Positions 22,645 to 39,644 of a DNA stretch of 57,793 bases are shown one piece after another. Every line of letters begins with the position of its first letter. Within the stretch, counting starts at the first letter, position 1. Source of the DNA: Deltaproteobacteria bacterium (lineage in GTDB: Bacteria; Myxococcota_A; UBA9160; UBA6930); assembly GCA_019312665.1 (NCBI GenBank), contig JAFDCZ010000003.1:1-57793 (forward strand). The letters are read 5' to 3'. A model generated the notes under the pieces. The model searched no databases and was not told the origin of the DNA. It saw nothing but the letters and a program-made list of their open reading frames with translations. The translations under genes and the position numbers were made by a program.

Positions 22645-23103
22645 ATGCCTAGACTCGGGGTCGTGCATCAGGGAACACCCGCGTGGCGCACCCGCGCCGA
22701 GCATTGGTTCGAGGCTCCGGAGCGCAAGCTCCCGGGTGGCCGTTGGCTGCGCACGAGCCTCCGCACACTGCATCTCATTGCAGTCGGAGCGCTCTACGGC
22801 GGGCACGTATACGGCGTCGATGCCGATCGACTCGTGCCTGCCCTCGTCGCCGTCCTCGCCAGTGGTGGAACGCTCGTCGTCTTCGAAGTCTGGCAGGCGC
22901 GCATCTGGTTGGTCCAGGTGCGAGGCATTGCCACGTTCTTCAAGCTGGGGCTCGTCGCCGCCGTCAGCTTCGCCTGGGAGCTTCGGCTCGCGCTGCTGAC
23001 CCTCGCGCTGATCATCGGCAGCGTGAGCTCCCACATGCCAGGCCGCTGGCGGTACCATTCCCTGCTGCACGGGCGAGTCGTCGGCCCCACAGAGAAGGGC
23101 TGA
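22645..23103 (+). CDS. Four-helix membrane protein next to NnrS
   Basis: 152 residues with four hydrophobic segments (about 38-56, 63-82, 94-112 and 114-131) and His residues at helix ends (TLHLIAVGALYGGH and SSHMPGRWRYHSLLHGR), a pattern compatible with heme or metal binding. No family is recognised with confidence. The stop at 23101-23103 is followed within five bases by the TTG start of the NnrS gene, so the two are almost certainly co-translated and may work together. It lies 44 bases downstream of the acyl-CoA dehydrogenase gene on the same strand. Confidence 0.6.
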   Translation: MPRLGVVHQGTPAWRTRAEHWFEAPERKLPGGRWLRTSLRTLHLIAVGALYGGHVYGVDADRLVPALVAVLASGGTLVVFEVWQARIWLVQVRGIATFFKLGLVAAVSFAWELRLALLTLALIIGSVSSHMPGRWRYHSLLHGRVVGPTEKG

Positions 23104-23108
23104 GTGCG

Positions 23109-24305
23109 TTGAGTTCGAAACCCGCGCCCGATGAGCCGACCGCCCTGCCTGCCGCTTTGTTCGCGCTGGGCTTTCGCCCGTTCTTCCTGGCCGCCGGTGT
23201 TGCCGCCATCATCCTGGTCGCCACCTGGGTGGCCGCGCTCCGCGGCGTCGCGCTCCCCACGGTGTACGACCCGGTCGGAGGCCCCATGGCCTGGCACGGC
23301 CACGAGATGCTCTTTGGCTACGTCAGCGCGGTGATCGCGGGCTTCCTGCTCACCTCCGTCCGCAACTGGACCGGGCAGCCGACGCCAACGGGCCCACGGC
23401 TCGTCGGACTGGCGGCGCTCTGGCTGGCGGGCCGCGTCGCGCCCTTCCTGCCCGCGAGCATCCCTCCGGCCTGGGCCGCCGGCATGGATCTCGCCTTCCT
23501 GCCCGCACTGACACTCGCGCTTGCCATTCCGCTGTTGCGCCAGGGCGCGGCCCGCAATCTGGTGTTCGTCCCGATCCTGCTCGCGTTGACAGCCGCCAAC
23601 GTGATGTTCCACCTGCAGGTGCTGGGCATTGCAGCCACCGGACGCACGGGGCAACTGCTGGCGGTCGATCTGATCGTGCTGGTGATCACGATCATCGGCG
23701 GCCGGGTGCTGCCCTTCTTCATCGACCGTGCCCTCCCAGAGGCCCACCCTGTCACGAGACCTGGGTTGGACGCGCTCTGCGTTGCCGCCGTCGTCGCACT
23801 CGCCGTGCTTCGCTTGCTCGGCGCAGATGACGCGCTGCGCGTGGTCGCAGGGCTCGCCGCCGCGCTCCATGCGGCACGGCTCGCCGGCTGGCATGACGCG
23901 CGGCTCTGGTCGAAGCCACTCCTCTGGGTGCTCTATCTGGGCTACGCATGGCTCGTCGTCGGCTTTGCAATGACCGCGCTCTCGGGCGTCATGCCTCGCT
24001 TCACATCGCTGGCCCTGCATGCGTTCACCGCGGGAGCCATGGGATCGATGACCCTCGGCATGATGACGCGCGTCTCACTCGGTCATACCGGACGCCCGTT
24101 GGTCGCTTCAGGTGCGGCGCTCTTCAGCTTCGTCGCCATCCTCGCGGCCGGCCTCATCCGCGTTCTCATCCCCGCCGTCGCGCCGAGCCTGTACAACGAC
24201 CTGATCGCGGTCGCCGGGCTCCTTTGGATCGCGGCCTTCCTGCCCTTTGTCGCGGCCTTCGGGCCCATTCTCATTCGGCCGCGGCCCGATGGACGGGCGG
24301 GTTAG
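23109..24305 (+). CDS. nnrS: NnrS family heme/copper membrane protein
   Basis: 398 residues. The start is taken as TTG 23109, with AGAAGGG upstream. The frame is open much further 5' but that part overlaps the preceding gene. The protein has about twelve hydrophobic segments and the family signature MAWHGHEMLFGYVSAVIAGF and LLTSVRNWTG near the N-terminus, plus GFRPFFLAA before it. NnrS is a heme- and copper-containing inner-membrane protein linked to relief of nitric oxide or nitrosative stress in other proteobacteria; its exact chemistry is not settled. The 3' end overlaps the convergent histidine kinase gene by four bases. No nitrite or nitric oxide reductase genes are seen nearby. Confidence 0.88.
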   Translation: MSSKPAPDEPTALPAALFALGFRPFFLAAGVAAIILVATWVAALRGVALPTVYDPVGGPMAWHGHEMLFGYVSAVIAGFLLTSVRNWTGQPTPTGPRLVGLAALWLAGRVAPFLPASIPPAWAAGMDLAFLPALTLALAIPLLRQGAARNLVFVPILLALTAANVMFHLQVLGIAATGRTGQLLAVDLIVLVITIIGGRVLPFFIDRALPEAHPVTRPGLDALCVAAVVALAVLRLLGADDALRVVAGLAAALHAARLAGWHDARLWSKPLLWVLYLGYAWLVVGFAMTALSGVMPRFTSLALHAFTAGAMGSMTLGMMTRVSLGHTGRPLVASGAALFSFVAILAAGLIRVLIPAVAPSLYNDLIAVAGLLWIAAFLPFVAAFGPILIRPRPDGRAG

Positions 24306-27775: not shown

Positions 27776-28324
27776 TTAGTCGGCTCCGTCGGTTCGGGGG
27801 AAGCCTAGTTCGGCGAGGTGGCCGGCGATGTCCTGGCCCGCGCTTCCGACGTTCACGTTCTTGTCGATCTTGCGGATCACGCCCTCGCGGTCGATGTAGA
27901 AGGTCCAGCGCTTGGCGAACAAGCCTCCGAAACCGCGGACACCGTAGGCCTTGGCGGCCTCCCCCGTGATATCGGAGAGCAAGACCTGTTCGGCATTCAG
28001 GGATTCGGCGAACTCCTGGTTCTTCTCCGGGTCGTCGAGGCTCACCATGAAGACGGCCGCGTCGAAGGCCGCGAGATCGGAGGCACTGTCACGCAGCGCC
28101 TTGAGCTCCTCCGTTCAACCCTTGGTGAAGGCTTTGGGGAACCAGGCGAGAACCACGCCTTTTGTTCCCACGAAATCTTCCAAGGCGTAGGCCTTGCCGT
28201 CGGAACCGCTAAGACGAAAAGCCGGCGCGACTGATCCGACAGCGAGATCGGCGGCGCCAGCCACCGAAGCGAGCAAGCCCCCGGCCAGTAGAGCCATGCA
28301 GAATCGCCAATTCGTGCGTCGCAT
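27776..28324 (-). CDS. Exported selenocysteine-containing peroxiredoxin (in-frame TGA at codon 70)
   Basis: 182 residues if the TGA at 28115-28117 is read as selenocysteine. A signal peptide covers about 1-24 (CMALLAGGLLASVAGAA). The domain starts AVGSVAPAFRLSGSDGKAY, and the active-site loop reads LAWFPKAFTKG-U-TEELK. This is the peroxiredoxin motif PxxxTxxC with U for the peroxidatic Cys. After the TGA the same frame continues without a break through FMVSLDDPEKN, LLSDITGEAAKAYGV and FAKRWTFYIDREG (conserved Arg) to the TAA at 27776. No other Cys lies in the mature protein, so an outside reductant is needed. It would reduce hydroperoxides in the periplasm. A SECIS-like hairpin follows the TGA, and selB lies at 37704. 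The GNAT gene is 32 bases upstream. Confidence 0.9.
28078..28117 (-). promoter_or_regulatory. Bacterial SECIS-like element following the TGA codon
   Basis: Reading on the minus strand from the TGA (28117-28115), a stem GGCGCTG (28100-28094) pairs with CAGTGCC (28088-28082), with one G-U, closing the five-base loop CGTGA (28093-28089). A lower helix CGGA/TCCG extends it. The loop starts 21 bases after the TGA and has G as its second base. This fits the known bacterial SECIS rule (16-37 bases to the loop, G in the first two loop positions), which is what SelB recognises. Confidence 0.75.
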
Positions 28325-28356
28325 CCGAGCCTCCTTGCCGCAAACATAGCCTTCCG

Positions 28357-36340: not shown

Positions 36341-36420
36341 GCAGCCAGCGTCGCGCCGGCGACGGCCGGATCGACGACGAGCGTTGCGCCGGAGCGGGGG
36401 AGTTGCTTCCCTTCTTGGCC

Positions 36421-37704
36421 ATGCTGGACCCCAGGAGCCTCGCGGACCGCCGCGACGAGATCGAAGAGAGCTGCCGGAAGCGCGGTGTCCGGGCCGATGT
36501 TGAGGGTGCTGCCACGCTCTACGAGCAGGTCGCGGCCCGCCAGACGGAGCTCAACGACGCGAACCGCCGGCGCAACGAACACCAGAAAGCGGGCAAGCAG
36601 AAGCTCGATGACGAGCAGCGGGCCGCACATACCGCCGAAGGCCGCGCTCTCAAGGAAGCGGTTGCGCGAATCGAGACGGAACTGAACGCCAGCCGGGCCA
36701 AACTCGACGAGCGGGTCGGCATGCTCCCGAACTTCATCCACCCGGATGTGCCCGAAGGCGGAGAAGAAGATTTCCGCCTGATACGCCAGGTCGGCAATCC
36801 TACGAGCTTCGATTTTGAAGCCCGGGACCACCTGGAGATCGGCTCCCAGCTCGATCTGATCGATTTCGAAGCCGGAGCCCGGGTCGCAGGAAACAAGTTC
36901 TACTACCTGAAGAACGGCGCCGTCCTGCTCGAGCTCGCGCTACAGCGCTACGCCCTGGATATCCTCCTCGAAGACGGCTTCGTTCCCTATGTCACGCCCG
37001 ACCTGGCCCGCCCCGAGATCGTCGCCAGCCTCGGCTACAGCCCGCGCGGCGAGGAAACCCAGATCTATTCGCTGGCGAATGCGGATCTCTGCCTGGTGGG
37101 CACCGCTGAGATCACGCTTGGCGGTTTGCATGCCGACACGATCCTCGAGGAAAGCGACCTCCCCATCAAGATGGCAGGCATCTCTCATTGCTTCCGCACC
37201 GAAGCTGGGGCCGCCGGCCGGGAGAGCAAGGGTCTCTATCGGGTGCACCAGTTCACCAAGGTCGAGATGTTCGTCATCACGCGCCCCGAGGATTCGGAGG
37301 CCATGCACGAGCACATTCTCGCGATCGAGGAGAAGATCTTCGGCGGGCTCGAACTGCCCTATCAGGTCATCGACATCGCCTCGGGCGATCTCGGCGCGCC
37401 GGCTTTTCGGAAATTCGACATCGAGGTCTGGATGCCCGGGCGCGGTGAGGGCGGTTCCTACGGTGAGGTCTCCAGCGCCTCCAACTGCACCGACTATCAG
37501 GCGCGGCGGCTCAAGACGCGCTTCCGGCGCAAGGAGACGAAGAAGAACGAGCTCGTGCATATGCTGAACGGCACCGCAGTTGCGAACTCCCGCGCCATCC
37601 TGGCGCTGCTCGAGAACCACCAGCGGGCCGACGGCAACATCGGTGTGCCGAAAGCCCTCCAGCCGTACATGGGCCGGGACACGATCGGGCCCGGCTCCGG
37701 CTAG
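36421..37704 (+). CDS. serS: Seryl-tRNA synthetase
   Basis: 427 residues from ATG 36421. The N-terminal 110 residues form the long antiparallel coiled-coil arm that grips the tRNA long variable loop. The class II catalytic domain follows, with motif 2 KMAGISHCFRTEAGAAGRES and motif 3 NGTAVANSRAILALLENHQ, plus TAEITLGGLH in the serine-binding region. It charges tRNA-Ser and, in organisms that use selenocysteine, also tRNA-Sec, the first step of selenocysteine synthesis. Its TAG overlaps the GTG start of selB by one base (TAGTG), so the two are probably translated together. Confidence 0.95.
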   Translation: MLDPRSLADRRDEIEESCRKRGVRADVEGAATLYEQVAARQTELNDANRRRNEHQKAGKQKLDDEQRAAHTAEGRALKEAVARIETELNASRAKLDERVGMLPNFIHPDVPEGGEEDFRLIRQVGNPTSFDFEARDHLEIGSQLDLIDFEAGARVAGNKFYYLKNGAVLLELALQRYALDILLEDGFVPYVTPDLARPEIVASLGYSPRGEETQIYSLANADLCLVGTAEITLGGLHADTILEESDLPIKMAGISHCFRTEAGAAGRESKGLYRVHQFTKVEMFVITRPEDSEAMHEHILAIEEKIFGGLELPYQVIDIASGDLGAPAFRKFDIEVWMPGRGEGGSYGEVSSASNCTDYQARRLKTRFRRKETKKNELVHMLNGTAVANSRAILALLENHQRADGNIGVPKALQPYMGRDTIGPGSG

Positions 37705-39644
37705 TGGCCGCCCCCGAACGCCTCCCGCTCATCCTCGGCACTGCCGGGCATATCGATCACGGAAAGACCACGTTGATCGAAGCCCTGACCGGCATCGATA
37801 CCGATCGCCTGCCGGAAGAGAAGGCCCGGGGAATCACCATCGAGCTGGGCTTCGCACCCTTGGATCTCGACGACGGGCTCCGGCTCGGCGTGGTGGATGT
37901 TCCGGGCCACGAGGGCCTCGTGCGCACCATGGTGGCCGGCGCGGCCGGCATCGACCTGGTGCTGCTGGTGATCGCCGCAGACGAAGGCGTGATGCCTCAG
38001 ACCCGCGAGCATCTGGCCATCTGCGATCTGCTCGGCTTGCAGCTCGGCGTCGTGGCATTGACGAAGGCAGATCTCGTCGACGAAGAAATGGTCGAGCTGG
38101 CGCGGGAAGAAGTCGCCGACCTGGTCGGAGAGACCTGTCTTGCAGGGGCGACGGTGATCCCCGTTTCCTCGCGCTCGGGCCAGGGCCTGCCGGAGCTCCG
38201 CCAGGCCTTGAGCCAGGCAGCGGCCATCGCGGAAGCCCGCACGCCGCGCCATGGGCCGCCGCGTCTCTGGATCGATCGACGCTTCGAGATGCGCGGATTC
38301 GGCAGCGTCGTGACCGGCACCCTGATCGGCGCTCCCCTCGGTGTCGGTGACCCGGTGGAGCTTCTTCCCGGAGGTGGGGTCGGGCGCGTGCGTGGCCTCC
38401 AGAGTTTCGGGGAAAAGTCGGAGTCCGTTCGACCGGGGGCGCGCTGCGCCGTGAATGTCCAGAACGTACCGTTGGCAGAGCTCTCCCGCGGCCTGCTTCT
38501 CACCCGGCCGGAAGCTCTCGCTCCAACCCATCGCTTCGACGCCCTGCTCCACTGGCTGCCTGGGGCTCCCTTGCTCGGAAACGACCCGTCATCCGTGGAG
38601 TTGTTATGCGGAACGGCCGAACGACGCGCGCGCGTGGCACCGATCGGCGTGTCGGAAATCACGCCGGGTTCGAAAGGCTTCGCTCGCATTCACATCGAAG
38701 GGGAAGCCCTCGGGCTTCTGCCAGGCGATCGCTTCGTATTGCGCGGCTTCCACCGCGCCGAGAATGCCGGCGCGACGCTCGGTGGAGGGCGGGTGCTCGA
38801 CGTATGCCCGCCCCAACGTCGCAGGAACGACCCGGCGCTCGTACAGGACCTCGACATTCTTGCGGGTGAGGATGCCGCGGCTTCCTTGCGCTGCCGCATC
38901 TCGAGGGCCGGCTTCGCTGCCGTTTCGAGCGCGACCCTCTCGCGCGAAACCGGCCTCACATCGCGGGAAGTGAGCCAGGCCCTCGCCGATCACGCCGATG
39001 CCGTGCTGCCGCTCGGGCCCGAGCTATGGCTCGCCACCGTCGCACGGGAAAAGCTGGCCGACCGCTTGCGTTCGGCCCTCCGTAGCTTTCACGACCGGGA
39101 GCCGCTCGAGCCCGGCATGCCGCGCGCAACCCTCGGCGGCTGCCTCCCTGAGAACGTTCCCGCCGCTGCCTTCGAATTCCTGCTCGCCCATCTGGTGGAA
39201 CTCGGAGCCGTCGAAATCGAAGAGAAGACGGTTCGCGCCGTAGATTTCGTGCCACGCCTCACGCAGCCACAAGAAGTTCTCGCCGCCCGCCTGCGTGCCG
39301 ACGCCATGATCGCAGCGTTGGAGCCACCTACGCTTTCCGAGTGGTCCGCCACCCTCGGACTCCCTCAGGACGAGCTTCGCCCGGTTCTCTCCCATCTGGA
39401 GCGCGACGGTTCCCTCACCCGGGCACCGGGCGATCTCTGGTTCGACAAGATCGCCGTGGATGAGCTTCGCGAGAAGGTCATCGCCCACCTGGAAGCCCAA
39501 GGGGAGCTTCCTACCCCTGCCTACAAAGAGCTGATCGGCACCACCCGGAAGTATGCTGTCCCCCTGATGGAGCTCTTCGATGCCGAGCACCTCACCATGC
39601 GCAAGGGGGAGGCCCGGGTGCTGCGCCGGAAGCCCGCCAGCTAG
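37704..39644 (+). CDS. selB: Selenocysteine-specific elongation factor SelB
   Basis: 646 residues from GTG 37704. The GTPase domain has [20 protein letters not shown] (G1), [10 protein letters not shown] (G2), [11 protein letters not shown] (G3) and TKADLV (G4), the SelB variant of the EF-Tu family. Beta-barrel domains follow to about residue 380, then the C-terminal region of winged-helix repeats (for example [17 protein letters not shown] and [16 protein letters not shown]-like end) that bind the SECIS hairpin. It delivers Sec-tRNA-Sec to UGA codons preceding a SECIS. Length is normal. It proves the organism is equipped to read UGA as selenocysteine and supports the peroxiredoxin at 27776 as a selenoprotein. 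selA, selC and selD are not in this window. Confidence 0.95.

Follow-up and report, generated by a model that had tools for sequence, protein, structure and literature searches.

The window analysed here, a stretch of 57,793 nucleotides (contig C312 of host genome G000), carries a peroxiredoxin gene interrupted by an in-frame TGA. By every test available this is a selenoprotein gene and neither a pseudogene nor a sequencing error, because the TGA/Cys codon pattern among homologues, a covarying SECIS element, the selenocysteine (Sec) machinery and purifying selection downstream of the TGA all agree; together with a modelled fold that continues across the TGA, these make five independent lines of computed evidence that support Sec decoding. 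Taken as a whole, the gene very probably encodes an exported one-Sec peroxiredoxin, with Sec at UGA-70, that reduces peroxides in the cell envelope and depends on an outside thiol for its recycling.

Selenocysteine at the peroxidatic position

The gene lies on the minus strand (27776..28324), running from an ATG at 28324-28322 through a TGA at 28117-28115 (codon 70) to a TAA at 27778-27776. Its 182 codons include this one in-frame TGA only, and a Shine-Dalgarno-like AAGGAGG (28330..28336, minus strand) lies just 5' of the ATG. Read on the plus strand, the same interval gives a meaningless frame and no gene. The joined protein matches PF00578 (AhpC-TSA) with E = 1.4e-28 and 99.8 bits against a cutoff of 26, over residues 29-152 and thus on both sides of the TGA, and its PxxxTxxU motif reads PKAFTKGU (residues 63-70). 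The sole Cys besides Sec70 is C9. The initial annotation had given no strand, but what it proposed for this gene is borne out on the minus strand: a continuous 182-codon frame ending in TAA, a TGA at the peroxidatic position of PxxxTxxC, agreement of the joined protein with peroxiredoxins when position 70 is aligned, and a mature part with no other Cys, the last being correct because C9 falls within the predicted leader.

We drew homologues from 60 related genomes and the GTDB contig collection. In the 82 that are distinct, residue 70 (28115..28117, minus strand) corresponds to TGA 58 times and to TGC or TGT 24 times, and no other codon occurs there. The known active-site residues of peroxiredoxins, here P63, T67, U/C70 and R139, do not vary in any of 56 sequences. 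In nine pairs, pN/pS 3' of the TGA was 0.2-0.6, like that of the part before it; the sequence downstream of the TGA is under purifying selection. An AlphaFold2 model of the protein, with Sec modelled as Cys, reached a pLDDT of 92, with low confidence before residue 20, and in this model a confident peroxiredoxin fold spans the TGA. Its best fold matches in the PDB were Bcp1 and the 1-Cys enzyme AhpE, the latter (1xxu, 5id2) with a TM score of 0.86 by target, E = 2.6e-14 and 33% identity.

A covarying SECIS element

Bacterial SECIS elements are described as small apical loops that contain a G and closely follow the UGA (PMC1088965), and the window gene has a stem-loop of this kind, small and G-containing, just 3' of its UGA (28081..28101, minus strand). 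Eight contiguous pairs (AGGCGCUG/CAGUGCCU, one of them G-U) join a 5' arm at 28101-28094 to a 3' arm at 28088-28081 around the loop CGUGA (28093-28089), which starts 21 nt 3' of the TGA, as had been recognised from the letters alone. For the window gene by itself, a stem as long at that place arises in about 1 in 200 synonymous recodings. When the register after the TGA and a five-base loop were fixed, at least five contiguous pairs formed in 54 of the 58 TGA genes versus 3 of the 24 Cys genes, all TGA genes having CGTGA or CGGGA as the loop; measured against synonymous recodings, the mean z of the stem was -2.8 in TGA genes and -0.5 in Cys genes. Across 36 distinct TGA segments, pairing is found in 92.5% of cells, and three of the seven pairs have changed on both sides. 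The double-sided changes number 23, a value that none of 500 shuffles matched and that slid controls fell far below; the shuffles ignore relatedness, a weakness from which the slid controls and the contrast between TGA and Cys genes are free. Covariation across homologues thus excludes a chance stem, and the stem-loop is kept with compensatory changes in TGA genes and mostly lost in Cys genes. One Cys homologue, from Verrucomicrobiales (L059:4959-5486), retains a SECIS-like stem of seven pairs in register, which may have survived a recent change from Sec to Cys or may be due to chance.

Sec machinery in the host and its relatives

The expected SelB is indeed encoded in the same window (37704..39644, plus strand; TIGR00475, 299 bits against a cutoff of 242), about 9.4 kb from the peroxiredoxin gene and sharing no operon with it. 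Upstream of selB, and ending at the base where selB begins, is serS (TIGR00414, 447 bits; the two genes occupy 36403-39644, plus strand), whose product charges tRNA-Sec with serine. Rfam and ARAGORN gave no RNA or tRNA match on the window, and tRNA-Sec was then sought genome-wide. Only matches well over 60 bits were counted, because the model also gives weaker tRNA matches in every genome, and these are probably tRNA-Ser. By this threshold the host has tRNA-Sec on C142 (68 bits); SelA is on C305 (510 bits) and SelD on C351 (22732-23658, L121). The selD gene has its own single in-frame TGA, so that SelD is probably a selenoprotein itself.

At least one of SelA, SelB and tRNA-Sec is present in each of the 19 sampled genomes that carry the TGA form. 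The initial annotation had held that its reading would fail if relatives lacking Sec showed the same stop followed by decay; we looked for such relatives, and in the four sampled genomes without SelA, SelB or a strong tRNA-Sec hit (G021, G028, G031, G043) no TGA copy was found, G043 having a Cys copy.

These data bear directly on two readings in which no Sec is made. If the TGA were a true stop or a sequencing error, the gene would be a pseudogene, and nothing favours this except the TGA itself; it is refuted by the comparative data, the TGA recurring at this codon in 58 distinct homologues, which come from many phyla and assemblies, with purifying selection downstream and a covarying SECIS, and we leave it almost no chance of being right. 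A change of code, with TGA read as Trp or another residue, would also keep the frame open, but the aligned residue in homologues is Cys and never Trp, a SECIS and full Sec machinery are present, and TGA serves as the terminal stop in several orthologues (for example L010, L015 and L016); this too is refuted, and we give it less credence still.

A predicted export leader

Residues 1 to about 25 (MRRTNWRFCMALLAGGLLASVAGAA; 28250..28324, minus strand) form a predicted Sec-type signal peptide, judging from hydropathy and A-x-A sites, with cleavage placed by eye near AGA/AD. The hydrophobic core of the leader has a Kyte-Doolittle mean of 2.25 over 12 residues. By a simple and admittedly crude rule, a hydrophobic stretch plus an A-x-A-like site, leader-like N-termini occur in 80 of 84 homologues, while no clear leader is seen in the close paralogues L026 and L044. 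Two homologues from other families of the phylum, L137 and L138, begin with lipobox-like leaders (LTAAAC and GLAAAC). Both also combine a TGA with a Cys at +4, and are probable selenolipoproteins on sequence grounds.

We infer from these features that the window protein is exported from the cytoplasm. The initial annotation had called export of such an enzyme unusual. The leader itself stands as a prediction, backed by the 80 of 84 homologues and the two lipobox sequences, but the novelty was overstated, since exported selenoproteins are already known, among them exported formate dehydrogenases and NiFeSe hydrogenases.

Relation to known peroxiredoxins

A Sec-peroxiredoxin of the TxxU type was reportedly described in Eubacterium acidaminophilum by Sohling in 2001, and such proteins have been known since 2001-2005. 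The premise that Sec-containing peroxiredoxins exist in some bacteria holds, and they form an abundant marine family, with 43 in the Sargasso Sea and 253 in GOS metagenomes (PMC1088965, PMC2398784); a 2006 list has twelve bacterial genes, three of them in Anaeromyxobacter, a myxobacterium. Some of the 253 GOS reads may belong to the present clade. The window protein shares with this family (PF00578/COG1225, TxxU) the PF00578 domain, PxxxTxxU, a SECIS after the UGA and Cys homologues, and its host has the tRNA-Sec, SelA, SelB and SelD that go with the family. The searched text of these two papers, the 2006 list and reviews (2022 and 2026; PMC13188914) makes no mention of a signal peptide or of the periplasm for Sec-peroxiredoxins; an exported one without a built-in helper cysteine seems to be undescribed before.

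None of the NCBIfam profiles reaches its cutoff on the window protein: PrxU (NF040737) scores 35 against 270 and Prx-SUH (NF045827) 21.6 against 298. All 56 clade members match the same set of NCBIfam models, the cutoffs being compared on window-protein scores. The best match is BCP/PrxQ (PRK09437, NF006960), at 73.3 bits against a cutoff of 140 that is not reached, and Bcp1 is also the best match by fold. BCP/PrxQ enzymes carry a resolving Cys in the helix that follows the peroxidatic residue, whereas the window protein has none there, only C9 in the leader; clade relatives that have a further Cys carry it at +4, versus +5 in the PrxQ-type sequences L034, L036 and L037.

AhpE of Mycobacterium tuberculosis is a Cys enzyme not known to have an export leader, and in this it differs from the window protein. 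The two are alike in having a peroxiredoxin fold and a single catalytic redox residue, as 1-Cys enzymes of the AhpE kind do, and both would therefore need an outside thiol. The Caulobacter cell-envelope peroxiredoxin PRX is reported to be recycled via the membrane electron carrier ScsB (Cho, 2012). Like the predicted location of the window protein, its place is outside the cytoplasm, but it uses Cys. The title of that work on this exported Cys peroxiredoxin (PMC3322552) is cited in PMC3672137.

Distribution and Cys forms

In a tree that contains no AhpE sequences, the clade of the window protein is widely separated from L035 and L038, which are PrxQ-like Sec proteins. The Myxococcota order of the host, together with one Hydrogenedentota sequence, has Sec as the only Cys or Sec of the mature protein, while gammaproteobacterial, acidobacterial and other Myxococcota members combine their Sec or Cys with a further Cys at +4. 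Within family f6, three genomes encode a single-Cys form (L017, L018 and L030) in a supported group (100/97) beside and within Sec sequences; in this unrooted tree the simplest reading is that Sec changed to Cys and no resolving Cys was gained. A strict match between loss of Sec machinery and this change was not found in these three genomes, whose assemblies are patchy: SelA is still present in G025 and G036, and G043 has none of the three components.

Across the phylum, 43 of 379 genomes have a homologue when the threshold is E ≤ 1e-35, and almost all of them belong to the host's order or to one sister family. In that sister family, G169 has two Cys copies of the exported peroxiredoxin, one of which (L128) apparently lacks the +4 Cys. 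Two further peroxiredoxin-type genes of the host genome also have a TGA at the peroxidatic place: L141 (on C365, DYTPGUTIEARDF) is PrxQ-like and has no leader, and L142 (on C356, DWTPTUSEEV) has a C-terminal part resembling glutaredoxin.

Proposed mechanism and alternatives

In peroxiredoxins, peroxides are reduced by a thiolate or selenolate that lies within PxxxT...R. In the scheme that we favour, Sec would be inserted at UGA-70 in the cytoplasm by tRNA-Sec and SelB acting on the downstream stem-loop, and the protein would be exported by the general secretory pathway and fold in the cell envelope. There the Sec70 selenolate, activated by P63, T67 and R139, would reduce H2O2 or organic hydroperoxides and be oxidised to selenenic acid, which would be recycled by an outside thiol because the oxidised Sec has no partner within the protein. 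Peroxidase activity and, above all, the identity of the reductant are what we infer here; the latter would most likely be an envelope thioredoxin-like protein fed by a CcdA/DsbD-type membrane carrier, and the host genome encodes one DsbD/CcdA-type transmembrane protein. No conserved operon or reductase neighbour naming a reductant was found at 31 loci. A cytochrome c gene follows the peroxiredoxin gene at four loci, all in one clade. Elsewhere in the window is a gene for an NnrS family protein (22683-24305, plus strand; PF05940, 378 bits), a family linked elsewhere to nitrosative stress.

Two other accounts accept Sec and differ on place or role. The selenoprotein might stay in the cytoplasm, its hydrophobic N-terminus being a membrane anchor or the product of a wrong start; the case for export is drawn from sequence, and L026 and L044 have no leader, but the Shine-Dalgarno at the ATG, the leaders and A-x-A sites of 80 of 84 homologues and the lipobox leaders of L137 and L138 make this account quite improbable. 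An exported Sec enzyme could also act mainly as an H2O2-driven thiol oxidase that makes disulfides in exported client proteins, needing no resolving residue, much as ER Prx4 and GPx7 pass oxidising power to client-protein thiols. The compartment is one where disulfides form, there is neither a resolving Cys nor a conserved reductase neighbour, and the clade keeps a single Cys upon Sec loss (L017, L018, L030), so that an outside thiol would always be needed. Against this role, a CcdA/DsbD-type reducing carrier is present, and the neighbouring +4 Cys clade resembles an ordinary recycling peroxidase; we consider the oxidase role unlikely, if less so than a cytoplasmic location. Were it true, it would be a bacterial selenium-based counterpart of ER Prx4/GPx7.

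Under the preferred reading, that of an exported, recycled peroxidase, what is new is a clade of exported, one-Sec peroxiredoxins whose representative in the window scores below all NCBIfam cutoffs, and annotations probably truncate such genes at the TGA because no NCBIfam model reaches its cutoff. A predicted Sec peroxidase would thus operate beyond the cytoplasm, in a compartment that lacks ordinary thioredoxin, in a whole uncultured order and in marine gammaproteobacteria. The family is also a natural experiment, since one scaffold occurs with Sec or with Cys at the active site, each either alone or joined by a +4 Cys; the benefit of Sec and the recycling of selenenic acid in an oxidising compartment are therefore directly testable.
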